A DNA stretch of 64,000 bases from Lutraria lutraria (Eukaryota > Mollusca > Bivalvia > Venerida > Mactridae): positions 44,113,137 through 44,177,136 of the forward strand of contig OZ026833.1 of NCBI GenBank assembly GCA_964023205.1, read 5' to 3'. The position numbers were made by a program, and so were the translations under genes. Position 1 is the stretch's first letter. Every line of letters starts with the position of its first letter. Below the pieces are notes generated by a model, which was given only the letters and a program-made list of their open reading frames with translations, had not been told where the DNA came from and did no database searches. Positions 5,858 to 61,986 of the stretch are shown piece after piece.

Positions 5858-5858
5858 C

Positions 5859-5882
5859 CTGAAATGCACAAAAATAAAATGT
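5859..5882 (-). promoter_or_regulatory. Splice acceptor just upstream of the TatD ATG
   Basis: On the minus strand a T-rich tract (ATTTTATTTTTGTGCATTTC) ends in AG at 5860-5859, followed by G and the ATG at 5857. This looks like a genuine 3' splice site and would let the second ORF be translated from a spliced subgenomic RNA, as env is in retroviruses. The donor would lie in the leader or the Gag region and was not identified. Confidence 0.5.
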
Positions 5883-6080
5883 TTTACTCCATGCATGCTA
5901 CAATTCTATAGATGTATGATTCGTTTTTTAGTTGCCTGCCTCAAACCCACCCTGAAACCCGTCATTACACCGGTCTCACTGTTATCATATCACTGCCATC
6001 GTCCTTACCATGGCATATACAGTACCTCTCATAGCTCCTTGTTGGACTAGAGTCTTCACTTTTAAGCTCTGTCCTTAGTT

Positions 6081-16383: not shown

Positions 16384-19300
16384 ATGTTTTGTGAAGTGCG
16401 TCTTCGGCCATCTGAAATATTTTATACACAAGATTCTATAAACAGAATTTTTGGGCGTTGTACAAACCATAGCAATGTACTTATTGGACGTACACTGGAT
16501 GATTTATGTGAGAACAGGTACCTGTTTATTTGTTATCACAATATTAAGTCTTATCAAAAGCTACAGAACTTGTTAGATTGTGTGACACATTTAATGATTT
16601 TTGCTGAAGAAATAGATACGTTTACATAATAACTCATGTATGTTTGTGAACTTGGCGGCCTAATATTACTCATGTATAATTGTTTTCAGGGCATCTTGCT
16701 AGCTCATGTTGAGCTATTGTGTCCGTCGTCAGTCCGTCTGTCAGTGCGTCAACAATTGCTTTAAAAAACATCTCCTTCTTAAGCAGTTGGCCAATTTCAA
16801 AGACACTTTACAGGGATGTTCCTTGCATGACGCTCTTCCAAAATTTAACTTCATTAAAACTCTGGTTGCCATAGCAACCAATAGGAAAAATCTTTTAAAT
16901 CCTGTCTAAAACCACTGGACCTAGAGCTTAGATATTTGGCGTGTAGCATTGTCTAGTGGACATTTACTAAGTTGTTCAAATTATTACCTTAGGGTCAAAA
17001 TTTGCCCCGCACTACGGGTCATTGGATTTATATAGGCTTTTATAGGAAATTTTAAAAAATCTTCTTGTCCGCAACCACTAGGCCTAGAGCTTAGGTATTT
17101 GGTATGTAGCATTGTCTAGTAGACTTCTGACAAGTTTGTTCAAATTATGGCCCTTGGGTCAAAATTGGCCCCGACCCGGGGTTAACTCTAATTCATACAA
17201 GAAAAATTTCAAAATGTTCTTGTCAGAAACCACAAGACATAGAGCTAAGAAATTTGGTATGTAGTACACAATTTACAATTTAAAACAAATTATGCTATCA
17301 CATAGAAAAGTTTGTACTGGTAAATGAACAGTCAAGTCAACAAATACTTCAGATTTCAGGATTTTAGGATAACTCATACAAGTTTTAATGACTATGAACA
17401 AAAGTCAGAGGAACCTGATTCTTATACATTATGACATTCAAATATAACTGATTAAATATCAACTTTCAACCATCAAACATTTTGAAATGCTGGACCCGGG
17501 TCAGTTCTATGTGACTTATATCATAAGGGGAGGTAATATTACTAACTAGTTCTCTCCCTTTTTGACGATTATATGATATAGTAATTTCTTATTTAGAAAT
17601 TCCAAAAACAACACAATTCAGGAAAAACTCAATGAAAATATACAAAAGTATAATCCCACCACGATAATTTGATGTTTACTAACAAAGCTATAAATAACTT
17701 CAATAAACATTATAGGGTAGTCAACATAAAACAAACAGGAATGTAATGATGATAACATTCACATTTTTCATATACGCTTAATAGAACAGTCGGTAAGGTA
17801 GATGGCTGACAAACTTTGTTTAAGTTACCGCACTGGTTCGAATCCACAAACTCACTTTTCCTTTTTTCATTTTTCATGTCCAACTTTGGCGGACATGGCC
17901 TTATCGAGTATCTGATCAATTTTCAAGGGAACTACAATTCAGGGGTTTATATACAGTCTACCTATTGTTACCCTCCTTGCTTGCGTTATGCTGACTTTAT
18001 TAGGGGTCATAAAGTAATAAAGTCAGTCACGCGTAACAGATAAAATATGTTATTTTAATTGATCCAAAAATCGATATTTCACTGTATAACTTTTGGATCT
18101 CTGATAAGACTTTCAAGAGCATGTCCCAACTATTATGTACGTCGTTAAAATGGACCGAAACGTATGATATTGACATTAATTTGTTTCATCAGTCAAATTA
18201 ATTTTGCAAATGCTAATATTATGAAAAGACAACATTCAAGAATCCTAGTAATAATTTTGTTATTGTATGCACAGTCAAATAGTAATTTGATTCTATTCTG
18301 CATATAAACACATTAGCTTACAATACATTTATTTAAACATGGCTGTATAATGTTTCATCCATAACTGAACATTAATGGTTAATAACAAAAACATCTTTCA
18401 GTTTTGCAGCATTTATTTCAAATTCATACAAATGCATCATCCCCAACTTTTTTAACCATCCAGTATTGGTAAACCGATAATCTTTTTTATATAGAATAAA
18501 GAAGGCTATTGTTAAATAACTCGTCATAACTTTCTTTCTGTTTAACTCACAAATTTTGTTACTATCACAAAAGTTTATTTAATTCATCTGCCTTTTTATG
18601 AATATTTTTTTATTAATTTAAAATAATAAATCAATGGTCCTTTTTAAGTTTAAAAACTATAACCCTTCATCTTTTTTACGGCCTCTACTTTCTATTGTAA
18701 AACCGAAAAAAATGCCAATTTAGGAATTTATGTTCCGTTTTGTTTCAAATTTACACCACTTTGTTAAAATATTACAAAATTTGTTACTATCACATTGTCT
18801 TGGTATTTTATTTTACTTTTAAGATATATAAAAATAATTAGGCTTAATTGACATCTTCGAAGTCCTTTTTAACTTTTAGACAACTGACCTGTTAATTTAA
18901 ATAAGAATTTATCGTCTCGGTAATACTCGGTATTTTCCGTAAGAATACCGAAGATACCGATATCTCTATATACTACTACCACACATTAGGTTCGGTTTTA
19001 TGTTAAATCTTCAGATCAACGCAAATAAATTAATTCTAATATTTATTAAATGAGAAAAGTCGTATTTGTGAAGAAAGGAAGATTATAATTAGAGTATCAT
19101 TATTAAACAATTGTTTCATATTCTAAATAATTTTTAATGTATATTAGTTAAATTTGAAAACATTTTCTGATATTATTGTACATGAGAACTAAGAAATAAG
19201 ACAATGTTACTTTTTATAATGAAATGTTAAACTTGGTACATGAATGTAACGCTTGACAATAGTGTGAAAAATAGAATAAGTTTAATTCTGTATCTGCATA

Positions 19301-22300
19301 ATTCTCCAGGTGATAATTGCACACACAATCGCTTATTAAACAGACTCAATTCAATTTTTGTATTTTTGTTGTTGTTGAAAATACGTGATGTAATTATTCA
19401 ATGTAAATTTTGATTAAAGTTTTCTAGAGTAATGTGCTCAGTTGTAATAACTTAAGTTACTATTTCTGAATGAAAGTGATGTTTTAAATAAAAAACAATG
19501 ACAATGGTTAAATATTATATATTAAATCCGAGGTACACTGGATCTTTTATGACCCTTAAATTGCTTTATTATCTGTCTCCAATCAGAATATAGCCTGCGG
19601 GTAAAGTAACATCCTTGCTGTCTGTGTTTTATGGTCAGACTTTCATTGCACAATATTGCAAAATCCATAATCGGTAAAATGTATTTGAGGGAGTAAACTG
19701 TAAATTTTCATTTCTCAAAATCGTTGAAAGGTCATTTATAAAGGAGAAAGGGCTGTTCGGAGTAGATTTGTTTAAGTTAAGACAAAAAAAATCTTTACAC
19801 ACAAATATCCCCTATTAACATACATCGGAAAGAATTATTGCAAGCGCGTTTAAAGATTTTTTAAACATTGTCTTTGATAAATGATAAATTAGCAGCGTGT
19901 GTAGTGAAAACCCAACTATGAAAAAAAGAGAAATTGACAGGCCATTTGATGGCATCAATGTAATTTACTGCAGTTGTACACTATCCTATTTTCTTCAACA
20001 GTATACCCAAAATATGCAGATTAAACGCGATTTTGTGCCCTTTAATGTAATAACCACTATGCTTCTGGGACTTATATAAAGATTGGGGATGTGCTTATAT
20101 ATAATATCACTTTTTACCAACTGCTTTTATGTAAACATGTATATAAGACAATGTACATATATGTAACGGGGAGATGTTTACGAATGCATAGAACTGTGAA
20201 TGAAGTCTATAATCCACAGTAAACTAGATTTTTTTTATAAACATGCATACTCATAAACGAAGTATTACAAAACATTCTATCTATTAAATTTTGTGATTTT
20301 CAAAATTAAATTCTTATATAATTTAAAGCCGCAGTGTACTTGTATAAAAACGAAGAATTAACACTAATATTCTAAACATTAAGCATTTTTTATGATCATA
20401 AGATTTTCAACATTTACGTTTTTGTTTAAAGCCACGTACGGTGAATTTATATAAAAATACAGAACAATTTTAATTATTACTGTCTGTGAAATAAAGAAAT
20501 ATTTTGTTCTATTCGGCTTATGTAAGAAAACTGATACATGCACATTTGTAATTTTCAAGATAACGATAAAAAAATATTTATTTTATAAAAAATCATAACC
20601 TTATCAAAATTCTAAAAACTATATAAAGTTGTTACTTTAAATTAGTCTGCCTGATATCAGCTGATATGAAAAGTTAAAATGTTATAGAATAACTGAAACA
20701 TCGATTAGTCCCGATCCAACAGTAGATGCCTAAGGTCAGATTAGTCACACATGACTGGTTTTATGGTCCTGTATACCACGCATGCTTGCAGATAGGCAAT
20801 AACACAGTGCTCTAATGATGGGTAACTCTGGTGATAATCTGATGACACCCTAAATTTGACTTAATTCCCTTGATTTCCCCGATTTCAAGATGGTCATGAA
20901 AGTTGGCCATGTTTATTTTAAAGTTTACTAATATCATTTACTTCACTGAATTCATATTGCCAAGGCCTGATACAATTGCATGTTTACTGGTAGTTTTAAA
21001 ATAGCTTATACCTGTATTATACTCTATTCAACACACTGCACAAAAGAATAATTCAGTTATAATTGATGCTATACTAAATTCACAAAGAAGTACTTGCATG
21101 CATGTGCTTTCAGCTGGAACAAACATCACAATATGGGCATTCACAACAAAATTTATACAAGGTAATAACGATTTAAGATTATACAGTTGTCATTGGATTT
21201 CATGGTCATATCAAACATTAATACAGCAAAACAGTGGCTGAATATATTTACACCCAAAAGTGTTCATGTAAAGCAATGTTTATCTGTCTAAATGTTTATC
21301 ACATCAAAATCACATTAATCACTGATATCTGTCTTTAATAATGTCACCATAAATTGTTTAACGACAGAAAAGTGTTTAAAAGTTCATAATCCAAGAAATT
21401 AATCGATTAGAATCCGGAATCTTCATAGATATAGAAAAATAATGAGTTCGACGAAGCATCCATTTTCGTTTTGTTTTTATCTAAGTTAAGACACCTCGTA
21501 CCTTGACTAAACTTTTAAGATAAAAATCGTCGATCTAAGAATTTTTCTAAGAATGTTTTTCACTCTAAGACTAAAGTCAAGAAAAATCTTACAAAGTTAG
21601 CAAAACTTGGCGAAAACTAAGATAATTTCGGGATTCTTAGATAATTGTTCATCTTAGTTGGTTTGTGAATACGGGCACTGGTGTATATAAACAGTACAAT
21701 CAATTTCTGCAATTTGATTGAAATAATATCTAACAAATATAACTCGACGTGCCCAATTGTTTGTGAGTCAATGTGAGATGCGTATAAAAAATCAATAATC
21801 AGGTAAAGTTAGCAACCATATAAAGGGATCTCAAAAATATGATTTTATTATCCGTCCTTTGTTTACACATCATTGAAAAAATAGATATACAAAGTAGGTA
21901 ATCTATATTATTTTATGACATGTTTTTATAATTGACATGTGGACGTATGCCAAAATGATATGTTTAGCATATAATTATATTATCAAAAATGAATTAATAA
22001 TAAATTTCATTTAATGAAATGTCATCGTCTATTTAAGGTCAATTAGAACAATAGATGAAAACATTATAAAATATAAGAAATATATATTACTTGATCTGTA
22101 AAAATATTTACATAATGCCTTCCATTAGGCATATCTCATAAAATAGTTGTCAGATGCCTTTTCTTATTTTTTGCAACATGATTCAAAAATACTGTGCTGT
22201 ATTTCTATATATACTTTGTGATAAAAAAATTGGAACGTTTTTATTGCAAGTTAATGTCAGTTTCACATCTGTCTAGGTAAAATAAGACCTACTTCAGTTT

Positions 22301-25300
22301 AAACATCCAAAAATCTAATGGGGCTTTAACAATAGCGAAAACCATTTTTTATTTATGTTATTTTTTATAATATCAACAAATTTGGTTATAAATATCGATT
22401 TTGCTTTTATACGGAAGTAAAGTAAAATATTTCACATATTCTAATATTTTCATCCATGTTGTAATAGGTTTTAGTCTTCAACCTCAATTATCCTAAAACT
22501 TGATTCAACGCGTCCAATGTTTATTACCCTGTATAATACATCATGCTGTGGCTGTATATACATAGATACCTAATCAGCAGATATGATCTTCGCCAAATGA
22601 TCGTTGTTTCCGTAAACGTACGTAAATGTCCGAGATTTGCCGAACGATTGACGAATTGAACTTAAAAAAAGCTAAGGGGTAGTTTTAAAAATCATCAAAA
22701 GGGTCAAAGAAGATATCATTTGATTGTTTTCATATTTTACATGGTGAAAGAAATTAAATTTTCAAAACGAATGCAATGAGTACAAATTTGATCACATTTC
22801 CCCCAAAAAAGTTATGATGCTGAAAACATCAAATTTTCATTGAAAAATCTACCAATTTTACGCTTTTTACATTGAATATAGAGGGAATCGATAGGTGTCT
22901 TTTTCAAACGCAAAAGGGTCGAAGAAAGAATTAATTCAAAATAATAAAAAATACACCATTAGAAAGATAAAAGATTAATTAAACTTTTGTGATGAGTACA
23001 AATTTCGTATTTTAAATAGAATAAAAGTTATGACGATTATAGTGAAAACCCCCTTCTTTGTTTAATGTAATTTTTTTATCGATTTTCCAAATCAGCATGT
23101 CCGCGAAAGTTGGGTATGACTAGTTTTTAAAGGATCGTCGAATACATAATATTAAAATATTTTTTTATCATTATACTTATTTAATATATATGTACTGCCC
23201 ATTAAACTGAATAATTGTATACATACATTAAACATGTGTATTGACTCCGAAGATTGTGAATAGTGATAAATATATGAAAGAAAATAAGAAAAAAATATAA
23301 ATATAATATGTACAAATGATATAAATACAAAATTAAAACAAAACGTATGGGGACATTCCATGATAATCATAAATAAATATAAAAAGGTAAAAATGTATTT
23401 AAAAAAATGTACACCTCTGGGGATTTGAACACACCAGACAATTCAAGAACACTTTACAGCAGCGCATTTACCTACTGCGCTAATGTCACACTAGTTCATA
23501 TTTGTTTTTCGTGCAGTCATTTCATAACGAAAATCGTCAATTGTGGTTGTATTATCAGATACACTCTACTTGTCATGCCTATTATCTTCGGATTAGACTG
23601 AACTAGCATTTTGGCGGGAGTCAAATAATCGGGAGGGCACTGTATAATGTTTAGAAATTAATGATTGTATTAGGGTCTGTAAAATAAGTTATATTTTTAT
23701 TGTGTACTATTTTCAGACAATATTAAGTATCATTATTCTAAGTTTATTTATTTGAATTGCACTGTTAACTTTCTGTTGAAACATACATTCTTTACAGTTC
23801 TTTGTATTTACTAATTCCTTTCTCGAACCCTGCAGATCTCACATTCATTATTTATAAATACCTTGGTTCCAAGATGTTCACAAAGTCTTTGAAGAACTGG
23901 TTATCTACAAGACTATAAGGCAGGACTTTTCCCACAATGAGTTTTAATAGCGCCTCAGCAATACACTTGGTCCAAGTTTTGCTGAAGGATTGGTGTTGTT
24001 GGTGTTGTTGGTGTTGACCTCAGTGATTGTTTTCTGTATCATCTTTGGTTGTGATTCAGCTTTGGAACTACCAACAGACGGAATGTACTCAGAATTTGAG
24101 TTGTACTCGAAATTTGTGGTATTCATGAAAAGGAAAAATGCATGTGAATAACTTCTTGAGTGACTTAAGGTCATCAACTTGTTACGACAACTAAATAAGA
24201 CAAGATTCGTAATTGCTAGTCGGGTTGTGGCCATGGCAATATGAGCTCGATTGAAATCAACTAATTAGCATTATAAGCACTGTTCTGTGTCGTCTACTTA
24301 GCTAAATATGAAAAGGTATGGGAGTTAAAGGGCAACGCAATGTTGACTTTGCAAGCACTTAGTCGTGTAGAAATATTAAAGTTATGATGATTCCTGCATT
24401 TTAAAAAAAAAAATCCACCATTTAACAAAAATATTGGTGATTTAATATTGTCATTTTGTGGTTGAGCGAATCTCCTGGTGCGCCGCCATTTTGAAAGAAA
24501 AGTCACATATCGTGACGTCCTATATATCACAACGTGTAAAAGCCAGTACACCCGTTCTGCGAGCACTTTTATAAAAGATACGGCCTTAAAAGATATTGTA
24601 TTGTATATTGTATTATAAATGACAATATTTTTTACACTTATCCAAATTAACGTTTAACACCGCTATTCGTTTTGAATTTATACAAAAATGATGTGATTGG
24701 TGGTGTGACAAACTTCAGTTAATTTCGAAAAGTTATAAAAAAAATATGTCATATACCGACGTAATAATTATTGATTGTTTAAATGTGCATGAACGCATTA
24801 TATATTATGATGTTTGAACAAATAATTATGGTGCAATTATTTTGTCTGTATAATAAAGAAAAAAAGATGAAAATACGATTGTTAGTGATATTTCATAATG
24901 GAAAATTAATAATAAACAGAAACATTTCATGAGATCAAAATAAAACTAAGTATGAGTTTTTATATGTAATTCTTCAATCGTTTTACTGATAATGTAAAAT
25001 ATCTGATAATGATTTAATAATTCTTTCAAATTATAGACAACAGTTGAACTGCATGACACTACTTGTTTATTTAATCTACGTCACGTACCTAAAACAATAA
25101 CCAAGGTCCCAATTTGCTACTATTACTCCAATTTCACATTAAACTTCAATTAACAATCAGATAAGCGGTACATTACACATCACCCTGTCTCAGCAAGTTT
25201 TATGACACTGAAATATGCACAGGACAATGATATGTGGAGACAGCTGACTTCAAAAAGAAACACCGACAGACATGTGTAATATGGCAATTTTAACCGTGTG

Positions 25301-27709
25301 TGGTCGCGTGATCAACTGATTAGCGACTTTTCATTGGTTGATCAATTAGAACTATGACCTAGAACATTATTTTTCAACAGAAGTGTAAGAAGTCTATGAT
25401 GCAATATTATGTCTGGTTCTTGCTGTCTCGTGATGTAATTTTCATCAGTGTGGGAGATATTGATTTTTAAAGTGAGCGTATTGAAGGTGGAAAATAAATG
25501 TGTAGTGATTATGGATTGACAGTCTGAAAGGTAATTTAGGCAAAAGTTTAAGAAGTAACTTCACATGTTTTTGGCTTTTATGCTTGTTATATGATTAATA
25601 AGCATTTACGTATATCATATTCTACTTTTCCCGAAAATAATGGCAAATTTCCAGATTTTCCGTGCTTTCCCGCGAATCAGACCAATGATGCTATATATAT
25701 ATTACCCCACAATTAAATGTGCAATACTGTTTAACTCCCAACTCAACAAACAACATAACTGTGCGTTCGTACACCACTTTGTATAGATGTGATAATTATA
25801 ATAATCTTCAGTGATATTTAATCTGTAAATTAACTTTTACATGTTTGTATATAGATAGATTTACTATGGAAATGGTGTAAGAAAATCAACCAATTATAAT
25901 GTTTTTTGCACTTCGTAGTGTTTGATCTTAATTCTTATCAATGAAATATAACTATAATCAGGGATGCTATATTACAGAACAGAACAGAAAAGACGTTTTC
26001 ACGTCAGTATTTTTCACGCAATTTATAAATATAAAAAAATGTTAGTATTATAGTTTATGTCACTATAAAAATGGATTTACTTTAGTGTCGAATGGAAAAT
26101 TAAGCTTTGATTCTATTGAAGAATTTTGTGGCTGTGAAAATTGTGTTTTGGTGGATAACGTGGAAGAATATGTTAGCTATGATTCTAAAATACAAATGCG
26201 TGATTTCTTAAGCTTATTCCTCACAATTAAAGGCGATATCTATAATAATCAACCATTCTCTTTCACTCCCGCTTATTCGCCATATCCATGTTTGTGGGAT
26301 ATGACGTCACACACAACTGTTAATCGATTGTAAATGGGTAAAATGGCGGCGCCCTGTACTCTTTCAGATAACCAAGATTCTACGATATTTTCGTAAAATA
26401 TCTTCAATGTGCGTATTTTAACGCTCAAATGATTTATTTTTTTCAGAATAATAATGAATAATTATTTAAATGAGATTAATTCATAATTAGGGTTGCGTTG
26501 CCCTTTAATAAATAATACGTCCACGGAGACCTGGTTCAATTAATAGAAACATGGGGACGACACATTAAGATACATTTCAATTATGAAAGATACATCGATT
26601 CTATCAAAAATTAGTCGGTATACCCAAGCACACAGATGATAAAGATAAATCGATAACATAACTCAAAGTAAGATAGTTTGTTTCTATTTACAATAATATC
26701 TAAAGACATACCATTTGGGTCATTGGCTCCAATGTTCCCGTTACGTTTCCCAAGAATTGACAATCTCCTGGTTAACACTTCAAGTGGAGACAACAACCCT
26801 TTTCTCTGTATGACAAATATCGCTTGCATGATCAATCTTTTCCAAACCCAGATCACTCTTGTCGGAAGGACATTGCCGGTTACATGTGTCGAAACAAAAT
26901 AGCGCTGTGTTGATGACCGGGAAATATGACTGACCATGATACATTAATGTTGTATTTGCGATAAAACGGCGTTAAATGATTCTCGGTAAACTATTGATGT
27001 AAATGTATTGTAAGTATAAACTTATTTGAGGATTAGATTATAAATTTGCAGTGTTCTAACCATGCAGATTTTCACAACTTACAGGTTGTAACTAACAAGA
27101 AAAGACAAGGGTTTACTTTCCTCCACTTTGAAGTTTGCTGATTATTTAATTATATTTAAATTGTACATTAATTTGTATCTGTTTTACAGGTGTCGCCTTT
27201 CAAATATTCCTACCATTACGGTAATTCGGCGAGATGGAAAATGGTTTACAGACTGCAATAGACGACTATGGGTGTTTCGACATCTCGAACGTCTTGGTAA
27301 ATGTGAAACGGTTCCAGTAACTAAGGTAACTGCGGTATCGCCTAGGAAGATGAGTACTTCAAATGGCGGAACGGAAATAAGTATAAGGAATGGTTCTCCA
27401 GGAGGTCTATGGTACATAAAGCCTAGTACTTACAACCACCTACATATAAGGAGAGATCAACCAGAAGGAAACGATGACAATCAACAAGAGTTACCTACCG
27501 TTGATCATGTCCCAGATACTCCACAGGAAAGTCATGATTTAAATAGAGGATCCGACATTCAAAATACGAATATCACACGTAGAAAACGGAGGAAGGAGAA
27601 TGTACTTCCGGTTACAAACCAGTATTTCCTTAGGTCAACGACATTGTTAGGCCGACATCATCCGTATAATCTGCGAAGTCGCGTACGGAAACAAAACCGT
27701 TCTAAATGA
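16384..27709 (+). CDS. Stand-alone ParB/sulfiredoxin-like protein (paralogue E), two exons
   Basis: Exon 1 is 16384-16517 (134 nt, phase 2, donor GTACCT). Exon 2 is 27190-27709 (520 nt, acceptor TTTTACAG). Together they give 217 aa in frame. The N-terminus has LRPSEIFYTQDSI, and exon 2 has DGKWFTDCNRRLWVFRHLE. This pair resembles the two boxes of the ParB N-terminal/sulfiredoxin fold (SQDSI box, then the RR box). A second conserved block follows (SNGGTEISIRN, GSPGG). The C-terminus is basic (RRKRRK) with YFLRS and YNLRS motifs. Nuclear location is only a guess. The 10.7-kb intron aligns with the 1.1-kb intron of the copy at 32431 plus insertions. AATAAA follows at 27794. Exon pairing is inferred from phase and paralogy. 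Confidence 0.65.
16690..17265 (+). mobile_element. Helitron-like minisatellite element, 3'-truncated
   Basis: It begins near the hairpin TAGCTCA-TGT-TGAGCTA (16700-16716), then has a GTCCGTCGTCAGTCCGTC stretch. About 2.5 units of the same minisatellite seen at 13200-13890 follow (ACCACTGGACCTAGAGC, TTGTTCAAATTATGGCCC). The match fades near 17265 without the usual GGCC hairpin end. It sits in the intron of the ParB-like gene. Confidence 0.55.
17775..17850 (+). other. tRNA-derived sequence (SINE or tRNA pseudogene)
   Basis: A consensus B box GGTTCGAATCC (17835-17845) follows a weak A-box-like AACAGTCGGTAAGG at a tRNA-like distance. The acceptor arms do not pair convincingly, so I do not call a functional tRNA. 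Confidence 0.4.
23410..23485 (-). other. tRNA-derived sequence (SINE or tRNA pseudogene)
   Basis: On the minus strand a D-arm-like AGCGCAGTAGGTAAATGCGC is followed by a B-box-like GTGTTCAAATCCCC. Intervening stems are poor and no matching acceptor stem is visible. Confidence 0.4.
24329..26504. mobile_element. piggyBac-like non-autonomous transposon with TTAA target
   Basis: The ends AGGGCAACGCAA (24329-24340) and TTGCGTTGCCCT (26493-26504) are exact inverted repeats, flanked by TTAA at 24325-24328 and 26505-26508. TTAA duplication with CCCT-type tips is the piggyBac signature. The 2,176-bp interior has imperfectly matched subterminal parts (GCGCCGCCATTTTG near 24481, AAATGGCGGCGCC near 26341). 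No transposase DDD motifs are seen; the 82-codon ORF at 26085-26333 is unrecognised. The paralogous intron near 33120-33145 lacks the element. Confidence 0.8.
26509..27189. other. Intron sequence shared with the paralogue
   Basis: This aligns in pieces with 33140-33685 (GTCCACGGAG, ACATTTCAATTAT, GATAAAGA, AGATAGTTTGTT). No separate gene. Confidence 0.5.
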
Positions 27710-32430: not shown

Positions 32431-34208
32431 ATGTCTTGGGAAGTGCGTCTTCGGCCGTCTGACATATTTTACACAAAAGATTCTATAAATAAAATTTTCG
32501 GGCGTTGTACAAACCATAGGGATGTACTTATCGGATATACACTGGATGATTTGTGTGAGAACAGATACCTGGTTATTTGTTACCATAATTTTAAACCTTT
32601 TCAAAAATTGCAAAAAAATGATTGTTATATTGTATTGTTAATCAATTTAATGATTTTTGATGAAGAAATAGATTTGTTTACATAATTACGTATATAATTG
32701 TTTCAACGTATCTTATTTTCGTAGAGTGACCCAGCGGGCTGGTAGGTGTGTCCCAGTGTATTTAGTTAGGCATCATTCGTTATTGATATACGGCAATAAA
32801 ACCGTTTTGTCAGGCTTATTAGCAAAACCATCTTAGAGTTGTTAAGACAAATAATAAATAAGAGTAAATAAGAAAAGTATTGTGTAATTGCTGGGCGGGA
32901 TGTCGCTATGACAATAATTATGAGCTCGATCGACAATCTGCTTTTAAAATTAACTAATTAACCTTGTATGCGCAGTTCTGCGTCATTTGACAAATTCAAT
33001 GAAAAGGGTCCTCGGTTAAATAAATTTCATTAAGAACATATAGATTATGTTAACAATTCGAATATATGTAAAAAAGAACGTTGTAGTGACAAATTTTGTA
33101 CGTTGGATCGTCTGCTTAGCTAAATATGCAGAGCGTTATGTCCACGGAGCCCTGGTTAATTTTTTCGGAAGTTGTGGCGACAAGTTCCCTGCGACATTTT
33201 AGTTGATGGCATTAATTTATTCGGTCATTCGTCCTCTATTGTTCATCATGAATGTGATAAAGTTTGCAATTTCTGTCTGAGCTCAAGAAAACATGCCAGA
33301 CTAACTTCCCACTAGTATATAACTGAAGTACTGTACAAATAAGGCGTAAATCCGGACAAATAGATACATTTCAATTATATAAGATACATCGATTCTATGA
33401 AACAATAGCCGGTATACCCAAGCACCCAGATGATAAAGACAGATCAATAAAATATCTCAAAGCAAGATAGTTTGTTCAGACTATTTACAATAACATCTTT
33501 TGGGTCATTGACTCCAGCTTTTAATTTCCCCATTACGTTACCCAAGAGTTGTCAAGACACAATTACACAAGACAAAAATTTATTAAACGTTAATTAACAA
33601 AAAAAGAAAAGGGCTTACATCACTTTATTTTGATAATTAAAGTTATTGTAAACATAGTCCAGAAATAAATGTGTATGTTTTACAGGTGTCGCCTGTCAGA
33701 TATTCCTACATTTAAGGTAATTCGGAAAGATGGGAAATGGTTTACAGACTGCAATAGACGACTGTGGGTGTTTCGACATCTCGAACGTCTTGGTAAATGT
33801 GAAACGGTGCCAGTTATTCAGGCTAATGAAACTGCGGTTTCGCCTAGGAAAATTAGCACTTCAAATGGCGGAACGGAAATAAGGATGAGAAATGGTTCTC
33901 CGGGAGGTCATTGGTTCATTACACCTACTTACGACCTACAAAATATAGAGACTGATCAACCAGAAGGAAACGGTGACAATCAACAAGAGGTACCTACCGT
34001 TGATCATGTTCCAGATACTACACAGGAAAATTGTGATTTCAGTAGAGGATCAAACATTCAAAATACGAATGTCACACGAAGAAAACGGAGGAAGGAGAAT
34101 GAAATTCCGGTTACCAACCAGTATTTCCTTAGGTCAACGACATTGTTAGGCCGACATCATCCATATAATCTGCGAAGTAACGGACGGAAACAAAATCGTT
34201 CTAACTGA
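32431..34208 (+). CDS. Stand-alone ParB/sulfiredoxin-like protein (paralogue D), donor site mutated
   Basis: Exon 1 is 32431-32564 (LRPSDIFYTKDSI, TLDDLCENR). Exon 2 is 33686-34208 (acceptor TTTTACAG; DGKWFTDCNRRLWVFRHLE; SNGGTEIRMRN; basic tail with YFLRS and YNLRS). If joined at the paralogous positions it gives 218 aa in frame. The donor reads AG|ATACCT where paralogue E has AG|GTACCT, so the GT is lost. The next GT, 10 bases into the intron, would change the phase. Either an unusual donor is used, exon 2 is expressed from another start, or this copy is becoming a pseudogene. Exon 2 itself is intact. AATAAA lies 31 bases after the stop (34239-34244). Confidence 0.6.
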
Positions 34209-41920: not shown

Positions 41921-43120
41921 ATGTTACTTAAACCGTCTGAAATATTTTACACTCAAAGTTCGATTAACAGTTATTTCGGTTGGAAAACAGGGCACAGACG
42001 TTCAAAAATTGGAGATACATTGGACAGTATATGTGAAAACAAGTAAGGGATTCTTTTTAATTGGTTCGTTTAGTTCATTATGTTATAATACGAACCTGAT
42101 GAACTTATTTCTGCCCTCTGTTGGTGACTTTATTGCTTCCAAAACGACCCAAAATTACAGTTTTTACTGAATATAAAAACAATAAGAATGGTTCTAATTA
42201 ACAAAAATATTTTTTTACAGAGATTCTATGAACACTAAGATCAAAATTGTATGGTAAATTATAGGAATTTTGTTTTCCCGATACCCCCCCCCCCCCCCCA
42301 GTTATTATGATTATCAAAACGACTAAAATGGGAGAGAGCGGAACATACAGAGAGTTGATGTTCCAATAGGTTTCTATCCTACATGATATTTAAACAAAAA
42401 TAAAGCTTTACATTTCACACTTTCTATAGATAGTGCATTTTGCTATTTTGCAGCTGTAAAATTTCCGATATTCCCATCATCTTGGTGTGTAAAAAAGATG
42501 GCAAATGGTTTACCAGCTGTAATAGAAGGTTATGGATATTCAGACATCTGGAAAGACTGGGAAAGTGTACCAATGTTGAAGTTGAAGAAACAACTGAGAT
42601 CCCATCAGGAAAGATGACGTCTTCTAATGAGGGGAAAGAGATTACTGTTAGAAATACGCCACCTGGTGGTTGTTGGTATTCCAAACCAACAGTTTACATT
42701 CCAGAACATGCAGAATCTAATGGCGAAGTATTAGAAATCATGCACACAAAGGAAACTGAAACTTCGGTCGACTCCCTTACATTTACCGAAGGTTCTTCTG
42801 CTCCTGATATAAATACTTCTAATGAGGTTTCCATTGAAGACAACGCGGAGGGTAAAATGGAAAACCGCGCATGCAATGTCATTGAGATGCCCCTAGAATC
42901 TGAAATCCATAATACTAAAACTGCTGATAGTCCTTTGGATGATACAGAGCCGGATTCAATTGAGAGTGATACTGAGATTATTCCGGGAACCAAAGAGCCA
43001 ACTTCTCACAACGAAAATGCAGATGAGAACGATGAATTATGCTTATACTCAGCACAAATTCTTCGAAAGGAAAAAAACAAAAGCGTAAAGCGGCTTCAGC
43101 CCCAACAAAAACATGTATAA
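41921..43120 (+). CDS. Stand-alone ParB/sulfiredoxin-like protein with acidic tail (paralogue C)
   Basis: Exon 1 is 41921-42042 (122 nt, donor GTAAGG). Exon 2 is 42454-43120 (acceptor TATTTTGCAG). Together 262 aa in frame. Motifs: LKPSEIFYTQSSI and TLDSICEN in exon 1; ISDIPIILV, DGKWFTSCNRRLWIFRHLERLGKC, then SSNEGKEITVRN and PPGG in exon 2. The C-terminal half (about residue 125 on) is Glu/Asp/Ser/Thr-rich and probably disordered, ending in a short basic stretch. This differs from the basic tails of E and D and from the HSPA12 fusion in B. A 16-base C run (42284-42299) lies in the intron. Function unknown. Confidence 0.7.
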
Positions 43121-45677: not shown

Positions 45678-46234
45678 ATGTATCTACGACCGTCAAATAT
45701 ATTTTATTCACAAGATTCAATAAGTAACAAATTTGGACAAGGAGGTTACAGGGGTGCTTTAATAGGAGCTACACTGGATGACATTTGTCAACGAGTATGT
45801 AGTTCAAAAGTATCAAGACAAGTTATTCTAAATAGTTTTAGTTAATCTATTAGTATGAGCTCTTGTTATTTGTAAATATATAGTTATAAAGAATATTTCG
45901 TGTTGATGTGTTAAACGGGAGCCTGACGCAAGGACATATCGATCATCGTCCGCGTTAGGTCGCAATGCTTTATTCAAGTCTAGACAAAATATCAAAGGCA
46001 CACGATCCACCCTATTTCGGAGTAGTTATGGACAGTCGTGTAGACCAAATATTCGCCCTGATTCGACAGTAAATGCATCGTCATCAACATTCATGTCATC
46101 CCCACCGGTCAGAAATACAATTCGTAACAATTTCTCAACACAATTATTTGGCCGCTCAGGCTTGCAGACTGATCGGCGACATGAGGTAAGATTATTTTAG
46201 ATTTGAAACAAGACACAAGTATCGTATACACATG

Positions 46235-46256
46235 TATATATATATATATATATATA
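46235..46256. repeat. (TA)n microsatellite
   Basis: About eleven TA units in the intron after the linker exon of copy A. Confidence 0.8.
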
Positions 46257-47667
46257 ATGTGTATAAAGTGTTATTACAAACGACAAAAGGGCATTGTGTT
46301 AATTTGTATAGCGTGTTTGATGTTCTAAAGTTATCAACCGCTGAATATGTAATACTCTTTAAACCAGACATTTCCGGGTCATCTACCTGAATAGATTGAT
46401 TCCGAAAGTAAATGTCAAATCTATTTATAATATAATACAATTTTAATGCATGAGTCAAAAAGTTTGGACCAATGTCCATATATGATGTTTCACCTTTTGT
46501 GAAATTTTATCCTGAACTCAAGACAAGTCATTCTTGAATGCTGTACTTTGGGGGACATTCCCTTCTAAAACAACACATTGAAAATTCCAAAGAATTTAGA
46601 TATTGTTTCACGAATAGTTTTCTTCAAATTGAGGATTTGGCTAGATTGACTTTCATATTTTGCACATTGATTTTTGTTTATAAAAATATTCATATTTTCC
46701 ATAAATGGAATTTGAACTGTATTTAATATCAATAGGCTGATAGATGTTATCGATATCCACTGTGTTGAAATGTATATTTAAACGGGTTGACATATATGTA
46801 CTTCAATATTTTTAATTTACTGCTAACATCAGCGACAGACCCTTTAAAATTCATTAAATCTCGGTTGATTGAAGAAAATTTGCATGTATACCTTATAGCA
46901 ATCGTTTAAAACAATAACGAAATCAGTGAATATTTTCTGCAAATAGACTTGCGCAATAATACGTCTATTAAGAGTTTCGTATAAATAGAAGACATTAGGA
47001 AATTCCAGTACCCAAATATAAACTTTATACCAGCATTTTCAGAAAATCGTATAGGCCGTAATGTGGTAATATATTATCTATCTATAAAGTAATATGCCTT
47101 TAATGCGTTAAAAACAAACTGACGTGCTATTTTTAGATAGCAATAGTTCACTTGCTCCTTGTAAACTGGAATGAACTATATTGTGTAGTTCGACATTTAT
47201 CGTGGTTTCCCACATATTTCCAACCGGACTAGGTCTAAGCGCAGCGTTTTTATGAATTATTAATTATTTACACAATTCTGAAATACATTAACTTATAGTA
47301 TTTTATTTGGAATTGTCAGATTACGTTCTTGGTGGTTATTTTCAGTCTTCTATTAGCAATAGTGGTTCGTATCACTGATTGATGACGTTTTTACTTTTTA
47401 TTAGACACGTGTACAATTGTTATAAAAGTATCGAAAATCATGATAAGTGTATCATAAAATGCATGACATTGCATAAAATGAACCGGTCAAAATTGAATGG
47501 TAACATGATAATCATTAAATATAATATTAAACTACTTATATCCAAGTCTCAGACTTAATGAAAACACAAACTTTCTCTTTGCGTTTTCTTTGCTGAATTC
47601 GATCATGTATACAACAAAATATATTTTGTATTCAATTTTACTACTATTTTACTACTCTTTGTAAAAG

Positions 47668-50342
47668 GTGTTTTCAGTTCAACCACAAAGAAGTCTTGAA
47701 TCCACAAAATATCTGGTCTGCGCCTTAGATTTCGGATCAACATACTCTGGTTGGGCGTATTCGTTCAAAGATGATTATGAGAAAGACCCAACTAAAGCAT
47801 TTGTCAGACAATGGCATTCCGGTTCTGGTGGACTATGTACAGAGAAGACACCAACAATTGTCTTGATCAAACCAAATGGTAAAACACTTGAAGCGTTTGG
47901 TTATGAAGCGGAAAACAAGTACAAACAGCTAATGCATTTTGATAGTCACAAAAACTACTATCTCTTTCGGCAATTCAAGATGACATTGTACAAGAAATTA
48001 GGAGAGGTACTGTAATCATGAAGTGTTTTGCGATGAAACTAATGCAATAACGTAAAACAATTTGTATATTTTAATTCAACGATATACAACAGTCACAAAA
48101 CCAGTTTGTAGTATACTGTCGTATCGACAAATAATTTCTTTATCTCCTGGAATCTCATAATGTCAATTCCTGTATTTGTGCTATCCTTGTAAAGTATTTG
48201 TCATATTGATATTGGATGGGCTTTTATCATTAATTAGAATTAATTTTATACATAAAAAGACATGTCAAACACTATATGTGTATTCTGCAGGGAATAACGC
48301 GCAATATCTTGCTGAAAGATTAACTTGAAAAAAAGCTTCCAGCTCTGGATATTTTCTCCATGTCGATCAAATACTTGGCTGATGATCTAAAGGAGAACAT
48401 CTACCAAAAGCTAGGAAGACATATGTTTGATATCGATTGGGTTATTACTGTACCAGCTATCTGGACTGATGCAGCAAAACAGTTTATGCGAGAGGCTGCT
48501 GTAAAGGTATTTACCGTAAATGCAAATTATTACACTGATTACTAATAATATATATTCGTGTTCTTGTATGTGGATATCTGCCAGATACAATATAATAATA
48601 TATGAATAAGAAAATAAGTTATTTATCAGATTTTGTTTTTAAGAATGAATTTATAACAAATATCAAATATTCACATTGTTCAAAATGTCACAAATGCGTT
48701 ATAAATAAAAGTACAAAAAAGTTATTTATCAGATTTCTGTTATTTATTAGAAATTGTTAAGAAGATTTTATAACTTTCACGTTGCATACATAACGAATAT
48801 AGATAGTATTACTTCTTTCATTGATAAATTTATAGCAAAATCATTAAATTGTATTTTACTTTTTTGGATAAGTTATTCAATGAATTAGTTTAGTTTATAA
48901 TACATAGTCAATTGTGATATACTTTGTCGTTGCTAATGATGTTATCTTCACTATTCTTCTTAAGGCTGGGATTTCATCAGAACGTTTGACATTGTCATTA
49001 GAACCAGAGGCTGCATCCTTATATTGTCGACATTTAAATATTGATGATACTGTTGGTCATGACGGTGTTGAAGTTACCAGACCAAGGCCTGGAAGTAAAT
49101 ACTTGATCTTTGATGCTGGAGGTATGTCAAGGTTTCAAACACCTTTTTGGTTCAAAGATACTTGGCATTCTAAAGATCATTAGACATGTTTTTTTCTTTA
49201 AGCAATATTCAGGTCTGTTATTTATTAAACTGGTAAGCCATTCATTCAGTGTACGAGTATTAATCGTATTTCTTTTAGGTGGTACAGTTGATATTACACT
49301 ACATATGGTTGGTATAGGTGATACACTGCGTGAAGTTAAACCAGCATGCGGAGCTGACTGTTGAGGCACAATGGTAGACAAGGCATTTGAATCACTAATA
49401 ATGGACTTAGTTGGACAAAACATGTTCACCAAATTCAAAGAGAACGAAACAGATGAGTTTCTGGATTTTTTTAGAGAATTTGAACGTAAGAAACGAGAAG
49501 CCGGTCGTCCTTCATGTGGTTATAAATCTGTGAAATTACCAGCGGCGCTGTTAGAAATATACAGCGACGAAACAAACAGACAGATGAAAGATGTTGTTGC
49601 AGCGTACAGGTATTCGGAGTATATAGAATTAGTACGCGATAAGCTAAGAATCAATAATGAATTATTTGCTTTTTTGTTCAATGATTCAATTTCAAAATCA
49701 ATCCTCCAACTGAACGAGGTGCTCAATAAAGAAGACCTGACAACAATACACGCAATTTATATGGTTGGAGGATATTCACAGTCTCCACTCTTGCAGAAAC
49801 GAATTAAAGAAGAATATCCTACTCTGAATATTGTTGTTCCACGAGACGCCTCAATGTGTGTCTTGAAGGGAGCATTGATATACGGTCACCATCCGACTAT
49901 GATTTCTGAAAGAGTTCTTAAGTACACATATGGAATGCGTTGTATAACCTCATTTGATGCTTCTATACACCCAGCATCAAAGATTTGTAAAAATGATGAA
50001 GGAGTGATGTATTGCGATGGATTATTTTCTGTTCATGTTAAAAAGGGTCAAACTGTCCATATTGGGACAAAACAAACGAAACAGTTTTATACTTCGATGC
50101 AAAAGAACCAGTCGGGTTTATCAATTGATTTGTACGTCTCAAATAGCGTATTCCCACGTTTCGTAGATGATGTCGGTTGTAGGAAGATAGGGCAAGCTGA
50201 AATAGTTTTTGAAGATCCTTATGCTGTGATGTATCCAGAGGCTAATGTTTGCCTTACATTTAGTGAAACTGATGTTATAGTTGAAGCAGAGGAAGTAGCC
50301 ACAGGGAAGAAAATTACAGCCAATATGGATTTTCTTGGCTAA
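47668..50342 (+). other. HSPA12-like module of copy A
   Basis: ALDFGSTYSGWAYSF (phosphate-1 loop) lies in the first exon, LIFDAGG|GTVDITLH (phosphate-2) spans the 49121/49279 junction, and YMVGGYSQSPLL (adenosine) is near 49760. The module starts with GTG directly after an intron and a TAA lies in frame just upstream, so it has no start codon of its own. Confidence 0.8.
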
Positions 50343-55242: not shown

Positions 55243-56075
55243 ATGGATCTACGACCGTCTGAGATATTTTATTCACAAGATTCGATAAATAATAAATTTA
55301 CGCATGGATACCACTCTGGTACTTTGATAGGAAATACATTGGATGATATTTCTGATGGACGGTATGAACCAAATTTATAATGTTATTTTTATATCAACAA
55401 ATGTGTAGTCTAACCATTAAGAATAGCTATTCTGGGTTATTTTGTTTAATCTTGTTGAGTTCTTGCTAATAGTTCATAAATAGTTATATATATTAGTTCG
55501 TGCTGTTGCATTTAAATTTCAAATGCTAACACATCACAATTTTCATAAGGTTTTGAGAAATATGTTTAGTTTTTGTTTCCTCTAGATGTATAATCGAAGA
55601 TATTCCGAACATTTCGGTAAAGAAAAGATACGGGAAATGGGTAACAGCAGATAATAGAAGACTTTGGGTATTTAGGGAACTTGAAAGATTAGGGAAATGT
55701 CAGAGCGTTCGTGTAAGCATTACTGGCTATATCATGCCGAGCAAATTTACAAGTCGCAACGGCGGTACATCAATTGAAGTTCGTAGAAACCCTGGTGGCA
55801 GATGGCACCTGAAGCCTGACGCACAAACATATCGACCACTGTCCACGTCTAGACAAACTGTTGAAGACACACAACATCGGACGCAATCCAGCATATTCCA
55901 GACCTCCAGTTTTGAACAGCCATGTAGACCAAATACTGACCCTGGTACGACAGTAAATACATCGTCTCTACCTTCAGCATCCAGGCCATCCCTACCTGTT
56001 CATAATCCAATTCTCAACAATTTCTCAACTGATTTATTTGACCGCCCAGTCTTCCAGTCTGATCGGAGACATGAG
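55243..56075 (+). other. ParB-like module of gene B (exons 1-2)
   Basis: Exon 1 ends ...TLDDISDG with two bases of the Arg codon. Exon 2 (acceptor TTTCCTCTAG) completes it and continues CIIEDIPNISV. Exon 2 has no stop: it runs open to the strong donor GAG|GTAAG at 56076, unlike exon 2 of paralogues C, D and E, which end in stops. Box 1 (SQDSI) and box 2 (DNRRLW) are the best-conserved parts across all five copies. Confidence 0.75.
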
Positions 56076-59000
56076 GTAAGATTATATAAGTATAGAAACA
56101 AGATACAAGTATCATATTATGTATATATAAAACATGTTTAAAATGGTATTTCAAACGTCATTTGGCATTGTGTTCATATTTATAGTGCGCTTAAAGCCGT
56201 AGGACATCAGTATTTAAGTTATGAACTGCTAAATTTGTTATATTTTTCAAACTAGATATTCTCTAATATGTACCTGAACAGATTGATTTTGAAAATAATT
56301 GTCATTTTTGTTATTTACACTAGAATAATTTTCTTATTTCTAATGCATGAGTCATGGGTTAGTAACCAATGTCCTCATATGATGTTCCACTTTCTGTAAA
56401 AGTTTATCTTGAACTCACGGCAAGTAATTCAACTGAGATACTTTTGCAGACATTTTTTTTCTAAAAGAACACATTTGAAGTTTGGATAATGTTTGTTTCA
56501 CATCTAATTTTCTTCAAATTGGGGTTTGCCTAGATTGGCCTCCAATTGTTGCACAAGCATTTTTGTTCATGAATACATTGTTTTTTCCATATATGGATAT
56601 ATTTTATCAGAATTGAATATTAATAGGCTGATTTTATGTCATCGATATCCGCTGTGTTTGTAACGTTCATTAAAACGTGTTAAGTTGCTTGTACTTAGAT
56701 GGTTTTTTTATTTACTGTTTACACAAGCGAAATTGTGCATGTATGCCCGATGCAGTACGTAATAACAAGCGCTTACATTTAACACAAACCATATATTATT
56801 TTAACACTGACGCTTATAAATAAAAAAAAACATATAACATGAGTCAGTATTTTCTGTAAATGGACTTGTGCAATGATACGTCTATTAATAGTTTCGTATA
56901 AATAGAAGTAATTAGGAAACCCCAGTACCCAACCAACATTTTCCAAAAACCATGTTTGCCATATATGAGGTAATATATGTATACATTTGTGTATATATAT
57001 CTGCCATATCAACTAACCGACGTGCGACTTATCTGATTAGAATATAGAACTCGTGCCATTTATATGTAAACTAGTTATGCATAAAGACCGTACAGTTTAC
57101 GGTGGTTTCCCACATCATTCAGAAATAAGTGAACAGCGTTTCAAAGCATAATTTATATTTTACACTATTTGGAAATACATTAACTTATTGTATCGTCTTT
57201 GAATTTTCAGATTACATTCATGATACTTACTTTCTTTCTTCAATTAGCACACTGGTTCATTATACATTGTACTGCTTAACAGTGGAATATCAATTTCGAC
57301 TAAGTCGATAAATGGGTGAATCTTGGAACAATTGTTCGAATATAGCACTGATGAATGACGTTTACTTTTTATTAGTTCGTTATAATAATGTTAAAAAGTA
57401 CGATAAGTGTATCATAATTATCCATAAAATAAAACGGCCGTAATTGAATAGTTGAATGATGATCATATAATAAACTGACTTCTTATATTCAACTCTTACA
57501 ACAAATAATGCCATCTGCATCTGCCCGTGTTTTTTTTTTTTTGAAGTCTTTGGAAATCTTCCATACTAATTATTATGGGAAAAGGTCATTTGAGGTTATT
57601 ACCAAATCTCTTACTACTACGGTAAACAAGACAGGGCAGAAGAACGAAAAATAGTTCTATCATTTTATAAACATAATTATACAGTGCTATTCTCTGGCAA
57701 TCATAAATCATAAACTCGATGTGATATGTTATTTAATGTTTTGCTTATGTTTTAGAGAAAAAAATATGGTAATTGTGATTGGCATGATAAACAGTCCTCA
57801 AATATTATCAATATAATAATGTATATAGTTATATCATGAAACTATTCTGTCAAGATTTCTGCACAATGCCTTCCCATCAGTACCTTTAGTGCTTTCATAT
57901 TCTAAGTTCTAAAGTGTATACAATCAATGGTAGTACACTACGTCATCAGTTGATCCCCCTGGACATTCTGTTTGTAAACATCATCTCTCGACTCACATGT
58001 TAAATTGCCCTAGTTTATTGTATGAAATCATTTAAGTAATTTAAAATGTTGTACGAGGGGTTATCTAAAAGTTTTGTCACTGTTTCGATAATGCTAAAAT
58101 ATGAACAAAAAATGCTCCTACTTTCACTAAAAAAGTGCTCGCTAGCGGTGTTGCAATAAACCCTCTGTGACGTACCCGCCGCACGCCAAATTCACAGAAT
58201 AAGCTATTTCGCTTTCCATATTTAAAAAATATAATTATCACAAAAATAACGCATAAAATCAGACGTAGTTTTCCTGACGTAGCGCACCAATGATTTACAA
58301 CTGTATGCTATGATGTTGTGATGAAAGTTTATAGTTAGAATCTTTGATTAAGGCCTGAAAACGGGATGATGTTTTTTTTTTGTATATTTGAAGCAAATGT
58401 CCGGGTGGGACCATTCAGAGAAATACTTTATATCGTTTTCACGCCTTGATGAGACATTAACATCATGAACTGTTTTTACAGTTCCTGTTGTTACAATAGT
58501 CTTCCTCGGCGCGCTATATTATTTTCCTTTACTTTTATGAGTTCCATTAATAAAAACACATTTCATGTTAGAAGCAGCAGGTGCGCGATAACGTAGTGTA
58601 CTCAGTCTACCATTGACAATGCATTATGTATTCTTGTATTCTACCAACCGAGTCTTATCAGACAAAAGTATGTTCATTAAAATGATGATGAAAAGTACAA
58701 TAAGTGTATGATATAATGCATCATATTGCATTAAAACAGTCGCGGAATAAGATATATGCAAAAATGTATCTTGTTTTCAATTATACTACTATTAGTGACA
58801 TTTCTTTGTAAAAGGTGTCTTCAGTTGAACCACAAAGAAGCTTTAGATCCACCAAATACCTAGTTTGTGCCTTAGATTTCGGAACAACGTACTCTGGTTG
58901 GGCGTATTCGTTCAAAGATGATTATGAAAAAGACCCAACTAAAGCATACGTCAGACAATGGCATTCCGGTTCTGGTGGACTATGTACAGAGAAGACACCA

Positions 59001-61986
59001 ACAATTATATTGATCAATCCAGATGGTAAAACACTTGAAGCGTTTGGTTATGAAGCGGAAAACAAATACAAACAGCTAATGCATTTTAATAATCACACAA
59101 ACTACTATCTATTTCGTCAATTCAAGATGACATTGTACAAGAAATTAGGAGAGGTACTATAATTATTAAGGTTTTTTCACAATGAAACTATCACAATAAC
59201 GTAAAACAATATTATTTGTATATTTTAATTCAACGATATACAACAGTCACAAAACCAGTTTGTAGTATACTGTCGTATCGACATATACTTTCTTTATCTC
59301 CTAGAATCTCATAATGTCAATTTCTGTATTTGTACGGCGTACTTTCCCTGTAAAGTATTTGTCGAATTTAAATTGGATGGGCTTTTAGCATTAATTAGAA
59401 TTTAGTTTATTCATTAAAAAACGTTCCATTCACATGTATGTATTCTGCAGGGAATAACGCGCGATATCGTACTAAAAGATGAGCTCGGAAAAAAGCTACC
59501 AGCGATGGATATTTTCTCCATGTCGATCAAATACCTGGCTGATGATCTAAAGGAGAACATCTGCCAAAAACTAGGAAGACATATGTTTGATATCGATTGG
59601 GTTATTACTGTACCAGCTATCTGGACTGATGCAGCAAAACAGTTTATGCGAGAGGCTGCTGTTAAGGTACTTGCCGTAAAGGCAAATTATTACACTTATT
59701 AATAATAACATATATTCATGTTCATGTATGTGAACATCTCCCAGATACATTCAATTTAATTATATATGAATATGAAAATGATTTATTGTCCAGAATTTTT
59801 ATTTTTAAAAGAATGAATTTATTACAAGGTATCTGTTAGATAATAACATAGTTGAAAATCTCACAAATGCCTTATAAGTAAAAATAATAACGGTTATTGA
59901 TCAGCTTTCCGTTAAAAAATAAGTTGACAAAAAGATGTTTTAATTTTCACGTTGTACATAACGGATATAAATATTACTATTTCTTTTATTGATAAACTGA
60001 TAGCAAAAATCACTCAATTGTATTTGACTCTTCCCTTCCCATTCCCTAAAGTATGCTCATAACATCAAAGCCATTAGGATGAGAGTTTATTTGTGTTAAA
60101 TGTAAAGAGTACAAACTGCTATATGTGAAAATGTCATTTATTTATTAAATGACGGTGAAATCTTAAAATATTCAATACATGACATTAAGTATAACAAAAC
60201 AAATTGTTTAATTTTCATTAAACATATAACATAAAAAATAGTACAAGTTTCCATAACGCAAAGGTGGGGTACACACAACGGCCACCACCCGAACATCCTA
60301 CATGATTTTTCAGAAATATTTGCCACCTCAATTGTATTTTATGTTTTGATTAAATTATGCAATGACTAAGTTTTCTTGTAATACATAGTCAATTGTCATT
60401 TTCATTCTCCTTGACGATGGTAAACTTTCACGCAGTAACGAATGTCATTAATGCTGTTATTTTCAGAAAATTGTTGGTTTTTGTTTATTTTGTATGAGTT
60501 ATAAAATGACTCCATTTCGTTTATAAGGCTTAGACAATTGTCACACCTCGTTGCCAATGATGTTATGTGTATCATTTTTCTTAAGGCTGGGATTTCATCA
60601 GAACGTTTGACATTGTCATTAGAACCAGAGGCTGCATCCTTATATTGTCGACATTTAAATAGTGATGATACTGTTGGTCATGACGGTGTGGAAGTTACCA
60701 GACCAAGGCCTGGAAGTAAATACTTGATCTTTGATGCTGGAGGTATGTCAATGTTTCAAACACCTTATAAGTTTATGGTTCAAAGAAATGCCCCATATAC
60801 AGCTAACAAACTTGGAATTTTAAAAATCATTAGACATAATTATCTTTCCCTTAAGCAATATTTAGGTTTGTTAAGTATTAAACTATTGGGCCATTCATTC
60901 AATATATCAATTGAATTTCTTTAAGGTGGTACTGTCGATATTACACTACATGCAGTTGGTATAGGAGATACACTACGTGAAGTTAAACCAGCATGTGGAG
61001 CTGACTGCGGAGGCACAACGGTAGATAAGTCCTTTGAATCGTTAATGATTGATTTCGTTGGAAAAAACGTGTATACCAAATTCAAAACAAACGAAACAGA
61101 CGAGTTTCTTGATTTTTGGAGAGAATTTGAACTTAAGAAACGAGAAGCTGGTCGTTCTTCACGGGACTATATATCCGTTTTAATACCCGCAGCTTTAGTA
61201 GAACTATATAGCGATGAAACTGACCGAGAGCTGACAGATAATGTTGCCACATCCAAGTACTCAAAATTCATAAAATTTGTCCGTGACAGTCTGAGAATTA
61301 ATGTTGCATTATTTGCAACCTTTTTCGATCGTTCGGTCACAGAATCAGTCGAACAAATTAATGAGATATTTCAAAATGAAACCTTGACTTCCATACACGC
61401 CATTTATATGGTTGGTGGATATTCACAGTCTCCACTGCTGCAGAACCGTATAAAAGAAAAATTTCCTACCCTGAATATTGTTGTTCCACGCGACGCCTCC
61501 ATGTGTGTCTTGAAGGGAGCATTGATATACGGACACAATCCAACTACGATATCAGAAAGGGTTCTTAAGTATACATATGGAATGAGTTCTTTAACCAAAT
61601 TTGATGCTTCTATACACCCAACATCAAAGTTTTATAAAAATGTTGGGGTGATGTATTGCAAGGATATATTTTCTGTTCATGTCAAAAAGGGACAAACTGT
61701 CCATATTGGGACGAAACAAAGGAAAAAAATATATTCTTCAATGCAAAAGAACCAGTCGGTTCTACCAATTCAGTTGTATGCCTCGGACGATGCATCCCCA
61801 CGTTTTGTGGATGATGTCGGCTGTAGGAAGATAGGGAAAGCTGAAATAGTGTTTGAAGATCCTTATGCTATGATGTATCCAAAAGCTAAAGTATGCCTGA
61901 CATTTAGTGGAAATGAAGTTATAGTTGAAGCAGAGGAGGTAGCCACTGGGAAGAAAATTACAGCCAATATGAATTTTCTTGGTTAA
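55243..61986 (+). CDS. ParB/sulfiredoxin-like and HSPA12-like ATPase fusion protein (copy B)
   Basis: Six exons: 55243-55361, 55586-56075, 58815-59153, 59451-59666, 60586-60742 and 60926-61986, all GT-AG with matching phases; 794 codons including the stop. Residues 1-78 have LRPSEIFYSQDSI and KWVTADNRRLWVFRELE, the ParB/sulfiredoxin-like core. SRNGGTSIEVRR and NPGGRWHLKP follow, then a Ser/Thr/Pro linker to 203. Residues 204-793 are a full Hsp70-type ATPase of the HSPA12 class: LDFGTTYSG (223-231), DAGGGTVD (438-445) and MVGGYSQ (602-608). No C-terminal EEVD. HSPA12 proteins are divergent Hsp70s, expanded in bivalves and linked to stress and immunity. The fusion rests on phase-0 joining: the HSPA12 exon has no ATG and an in-frame TAA immediately upstream. 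The intron at 56076-58814 could hide another exon. Confidence 0.8.
56076..58814 (+). other. Intron of gene B with two repeat-derived segments
   Basis: Positions about 58020-58465 repeat 35036-35265. That copy is split by about 230 bp beginning TTGTACGAGGGGTTATC near 58049, which looks like a mariner-type terminus. The right terminus is not visible. No extra exon was recognised. Confidence 0.45.

Follow-up and report, generated by a model that had tools for sequence, protein, structure and literature searches.

A predicted fusion of a ParB/sulfiredoxin-like domain to an HSPA12-type Hsp70 in the bivalve Lutraria lutraria

We analysed a stretch of 64,000 nucleotides of the Lutraria lutraria genome (hereafter the window; G000:C1:44113137-44177136, contig OZ026833.1 of assembly GCA_964023205.1), in which positions 55243-61986 carry a gene, copy F, predicted to encode a ParB/sulfiredoxin (Srx)-like domain joined to an HSPA12-type Hsp70. 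Copy F consists of six exons, all with GT-AG borders, which join in phase into 793 amino acids (aa) plus a stop codon at 61984-61986, confirming the 794 codons of the first-pass annotation that had been made from the letters of this DNA. The exons, in window positions, are:

55243..55361, plus strand: exon 1, with the start codon, the SQDSI box and the first part of the ParB/Srx-like domain
55586..56075, plus strand: exon 2, with the ParB/Srx-like core, the DNRRLW box and a low-complexity linker
58815..59153, plus strand: exon 3, with the start of the HSPA12 nucleotide-binding domain and DFGTTYSG
59451..59666, plus strand: exon 4, HSPA12 part
60586..60742, plus strand: exon 5, HSPA12 part with EPEAAS and FDAGG
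60926..61986, plus strand: exon 6, with the remainder of the ATPase (MVGGYSQSP) and a C-terminal part rich in beta structure

The SQDSI and DNRRLW boxes, which the first-pass annotation had assigned to the first two exons, were thus found in exon 1 and exon 2, respectively. Exon 1 ends in phase 2, as it does in the stand-alone ParB-like copies A and D of the same window, and exon 2 ends in phase 0 at a GT donor, without use of which it would run into a stop at 56139-56141. According to the sequence and structure models, the protein would comprise a ParB/Srx-fold domain from residue 1 to about 118, a disordered linker at about 119-214 and an HSPA12-type Hsp70 at about 215-793. That one gene here encodes one protein with these two joined modules is quite likely.

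A full-length protein search, in which 7989 candidates were scored and 3434 matches passed the threshold, 120 of which were listed, yielded a protein of Mactra antiquata (P0030, 784 aa) with 55% identity over 100% of the 793-aa model, so that the two domains, proposed to be looked for in a single mollusc protein, do occur together in a second species. The public record names it only ‘Heat shock 70 kDa protein 12A’. Identity to copy F amounts to 77 of 118 residues in the N-terminal domain, 22 of 81 in the linker and 343 of 576 in the HSPA12 part. P0030 alone among the 120 matches listed carries the ParB-like N-terminal domain, and most of the named matches listed are called ‘heat shock 70 kDa protein 12A/B(-like)’. 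At the level of sequence, the observed arrangement of parts is confirmed and is more than chance, because a 784-aa protein of another bivalve matches it end to end and because decayed or partial copies with the same order of parts sit in the same cluster. In a tree built on the last HSPA12 exon, a single clade unites the window gene, its local paralog E' and P0030 against 62 other rows, with a Shimodaira-Hasegawa-like approximate likelihood ratio (SH-aLRT) value of 99. The 65 rows comprised these three, 16 loci from the same genome (74 of 405 candidates of the own-genome HSPA12 search were scored) and 46 proteins, namely the even-numbered ones among the matches listed that were 440-650 aa long and had the AGGGT motif. 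Given this clade and the end-to-end match of P0030, the fusion most likely predates the split of this species and Mactra antiquata. A tree of the N-terminal domain left the two fused proteins unresolved with the bootstrap not settled, neither supporting nor rejecting a fusion before the split, and was dropped as evidence; the stand-alone copies of the window form a clade of their own in it.

The C-terminal part matches PF00012 with 42.2 bits (cut-off 20.6), HSP70 being the sole Pfam family above its cut-off in the whole fused protein, with two others far below theirs. The motifs DFGTTYSG, FDAGGGTVD (split over exons 5 and 6) and MVGGYSQSP, which we take to be the phosphate-1, phosphate-2 and adenosine motifs, can all be read in the protein, and the structure model of the ortholog P0030 has the Hsp70 fold in this part, in line with the earlier description of the last four exons as an actin/Hsp70-like ATPase. 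The fused gene groups with proteins named HSPA12, both among the 120 matches listed and in the tree. HSPA12A and HSPA12B are atypical Hsp70 proteins, and the group is expanded in bivalves. The fused protein resembles them over its whole C-terminal part, in the PF00012 match and in the Hsp70 fold, and differs in its N-terminal ParB/Srx-fold domain and linker. Several far longer bivalve proteins (P0031-P0039, 900-1240 aa) match HSPA12 over about 73% of the model; one of them, P0037, holds two HSPA12-like units.

Sequence searches with exon 2 gave 29 relatives of the N-terminal domain (P0001-P0029), ten of them with an organism name, all bivalves (Mya, Dreissena and Mytilus), and 19 without one. 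DNRRLW is present in 29/29, a result that the shared-word search favours. The structure model of this ParB-like family, with a predicted local distance difference test (pLDDT) score of about 95 over the domain, matches ParB, Noc, sulfiredoxin, SerK and SbnI in structure comparison; Foldseek ranked ParB and Noc above sulfiredoxin for the N-domain model, and against viral models the best match was a phage ParB-like nuclease domain protein (E 0.0018). The models thus bear out the ParB/Srx-like fold that had been proposed for the first two exons, and membership of the domain in this fold is supported at the level of structure prediction. A PDB sequence-profile search gave no ParB or Srx match and one weak match (2ewc, E 0.028), exon 1 used by itself as query gave no homologue, and among 11 pattern-matching stretches in each of the prokaryote and viral contig collections no relative was confirmed. 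When the N-domain proteins were aligned jointly with HSPA12, their rows came out misplaced, and this alignment did not enter the folding. The first-pass annotation had also named DNA partition as a background of the ParB fold; such a role is unsupported here, as Pfam recognised in the whole fused protein neither a helix-turn-helix nor a C-terminal dimerisation domain like those of canonical ParB.

The relatives are 125-283 aa long, limits that the search imposed. Of the 29, 14 carry a CaaX-type prenylation motif at the C-terminus, which occurs in none of the 120 listed matches of the full-length search; four of 29 have a hydrophobic C-terminal helix. In the same genome, the protein of a copy at C1:17.2 Mb (L045 1105-1935, minus strand) ends in CCIIL. 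From these sequence features, the stand-alone relatives are an unnamed bivalve family of ParB-fold proteins that are probably membrane-anchored. The N-terminal domain of the fused protein is a member of this family and the fused gene has HSPA12 where the other members often have their anchor. Another ParB-like domain, on C5 (L047 1336-3090), belongs to one open frame of 584 codons that has a long low-complexity tail.

The N-domain has 28 matches in the genome: 19 at C1:44.05-44.17 Mb, four at C1:17.24-17.25 Mb, one at C1:16.99 Mb, one on C5 and three on C9. Copy F has both halves intact. Its neighbours in the window are:

16384..27709, plus strand: copy A exon 1 (16384-16517) and copy B exon 2 (27188-27709)
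32431..34208, plus strand: stand-alone ParB-like copy C, with exon-1 donor AGATACC where copy A has AGGTACC
41921..43120, plus strand: stand-alone ParB-like gene D (exons 41921-42042 and from 42455), directly upstream of E
45678..46188, plus strand: exon 1 and linker, the 5' portion of paralog E
47665..50342, plus strand: HSPA12 exons of paralog E, a decayed copy whose matches at 48273-48509 and 49254-50339 contain in-frame stops

Exon 1 of A and exon 2 of B are possibly one gene with a 10.7-kilobase (kb) intron. The same deletion, which removed the end of intron 1 together with the ParB core of exon 2, is seen in paralog E (45678-50342) and in E' (L039). E' has an open HSPA12 part, whereas that of E is interrupted by stops. 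Copy G (L042) has ParB core, linker and HSPA12 exons in order but contains stops. In copy H (L071, 1910-2799) exons 1 and 2 are open and the splice donor is kept, and no HSPA12 exon was found in the 7.1 kb examined downstream. Stand-alone ParB-like genes precede both E and E' in the same orientation. Since intron 1 has equal phase in A, D and F, exons 1 and 2 of the fused gene most likely stem from a stand-alone ParB-like gene. Such a gene, upstream of an HSPA12 gene, would have lost its stop codon, gained a splice donor and been linked to the phase-0 acceptor found ahead of the ATPase domain in such HSPA12 genes. The order of ParB-like copies A-E (16402-50342) is repeated about 75-82 kb upstream as A'-E' (G000:C1:44054142-44081066), an apparent segmental duplication that is of recent date in the aligned part, E against E'. 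An HSPA12 exon fragment lies on the minus strand at 40889-41145, and L039 begins with a similar one. Copies B, C and D (16384-43120) read CNRRLW in place of the DNRRLW of the fused copy and the 29 relatives; this cysteine beside the motif recalls sulfiredoxin, although its position may be one residue off.

The ratio of nonsynonymous to synonymous substitution rates (Ka/Ks) between F and E' was 0.35 (0.26-0.47) over 590 HSPA12 codons and 0.59 (0.23-1.77) over 39 exon 1 codons, and between F and H it was 0.30 (0.17-0.50) over 118 codons of the ParB-like domain. Codon comparison thus shows selection against change in the HSPA12 part and in the ParB-like domain. Synonymous divergence between H and F is 0.65 for the domain against 0.19 for the linker, a difference suggestive of gene conversion.

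Several results lend no support to a single fused protein with a ParB-like domain. Pfam gave no match for residues 1-203 at E <= 1, PF02195 did not match the copy F protein at E <= 1, and no Pfam ParB model was among the eight families matched by the 29 relatives at E <= 10, which sets the domain apart from the known ParB-CTPase fold proteins. Linker conservation was dropped as evidence for the fusion: with 22 of 81 residues identical, its score against Mactra lies 0.8 standard deviations above shuffles, and its Ka/Ks is 0.95 (0.50-1.97) for F and E' over 81 codons and 0.80 (0.37-1.90) for F and H over 85 codons. Exon 3 has no ATG before DFGTT and an in-frame stop directly upstream, as the first-pass annotation had stated, but its conclusion that the preceding exons are needed does not follow. 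No ATG is present either in an unfused HSPA12 exon on contig C17, which starts at a phase-0 splice site, so the missing start codon is not diagnostic of fusion and was abandoned as proof; the C17 gene must have a separate first exon anyway.

The locus could also be read as two adjacent genes: a stand-alone ParB-like one, with its stop at 56139-56141 and a product of about 224 aa, and an HSPA12 gene whose own short first exon would lie within 56076-58814. The separate first exon of the unfused gene in the same genome speaks for this arrangement, as do copy H, with both ParB-like exons intact and no HSPA12 exon behind them, and the linker without detectable selection. Scanning the intron for phase-0 ATG-to-GT mini-exons gave 42 candidates in F and 11 in E', some of those in F with fair donors (GAG/GTAATA and AAA/GTATGT, the slash marking the exon border); however, these two have no counterpart among the 11 of E', and the sole pair at matching places, MSSYDVPLS and MSIYDVSPF, has poor donors. 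Moreover, the Mactra record is the same joined protein, and E, E' and H have all retained the splice donor that closes exon 2, so that we regard two separate genes as unlikely.

Alternatively, the fusion could be real and the ParB-like domain a functionless passenger, the protein acting as an ordinary HSPA12. The loss of the ParB core in E', whose HSPA12 part is still open, and the rarity of the fusion among the matches listed would fit, but the low domain Ka/Ks between F and H and the identity of 77 of 118 domain residues with Mactra, next to a linker that is not conserved, argue otherwise, and this explanation is improbable as well. That the N-domain is a working sulfiredoxin repairing oxidised peroxiredoxin while HSPA12 refolds damaged protein is very improbable, since the DNRRLW of all 29 relatives has no cysteine and would thus lack the catalytic one of the sulfiredoxin signature GGCHR, and Foldseek ranks ParB and Noc higher than sulfiredoxin.

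In such a fused protein the ParB-like domain might act in docking or sensing. A prenyl group or a C-terminal helix seems to keep many of the stand-alone relatives at a membrane; the fusion would have, in place of this anchor, an Hsp70 whose hold on clients depends on ADP/ATP, and an HSPA12 chaperone or adaptor would in this way be brought to the ligand or membrane complex recognised by the ParB-like domain. Human HSPA12A is reported to bind the SorLA tail in an ADP/ATP-dependent manner (PMC6345817). The docking role is tentative, a nucleotide switch in the N-domain is doubtful, and the stress or defence sensor suggested by the first-pass annotation is a conjecture. More speculative still is the full scheme of a nucleotide-responsive ParB-fold switch from a lipid-anchored bivalve family wired to an Hsp70, in which two nucleotides, perhaps CTP and ATP, would set client grip (ADP/ATP) and location.

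By structure prediction, the N-domain shares its fold with ParB, Noc, SerK, SbnI and sulfiredoxin. The sections of a survey of the ParB-CTPase fold used here report that the fold is fused to many lineage-specific domains and that it binds CTP, ATP or GTP, name sulfiredoxin as the commonest eukaryotic form, and analyse fusions in bacteria, archaea and phages; within these sections Hsp70 occurs only as an analogy and in the reference list (PMC12704722). Literature searches of one open-access collection listed no description of a fusion of the ParB/Srx fold to Hsp70. The first-pass annotation had called the architecture novel and without described example; the architecture is supported by the fused ortholog and the structure models, and the public Mactra record already holds the same fusion, unnoticed. 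Thus the fused protein looks like a real, undescribed protein design. It points to an unnamed bivalve ParB-fold family, many members of which have likely lipid or membrane anchors, and offers a test case for the way in which new targeting parts are acquired in the large HSPA12 family of bivalves.

Elsewhere in the window, on the minus strand, a 764-codon frame with a terminal TatD DNase domain adjoins a second frame (3611-5905 and 6081-8006), the second frame having weak gag and integrase matches below the Pfam cut-offs. A reverse transcriptase fragment (RVT_1) lies at 2-709 on the minus strand, and an open frame at 36868-37941 has a B-box zinc finger just at the Pfam cut-off.
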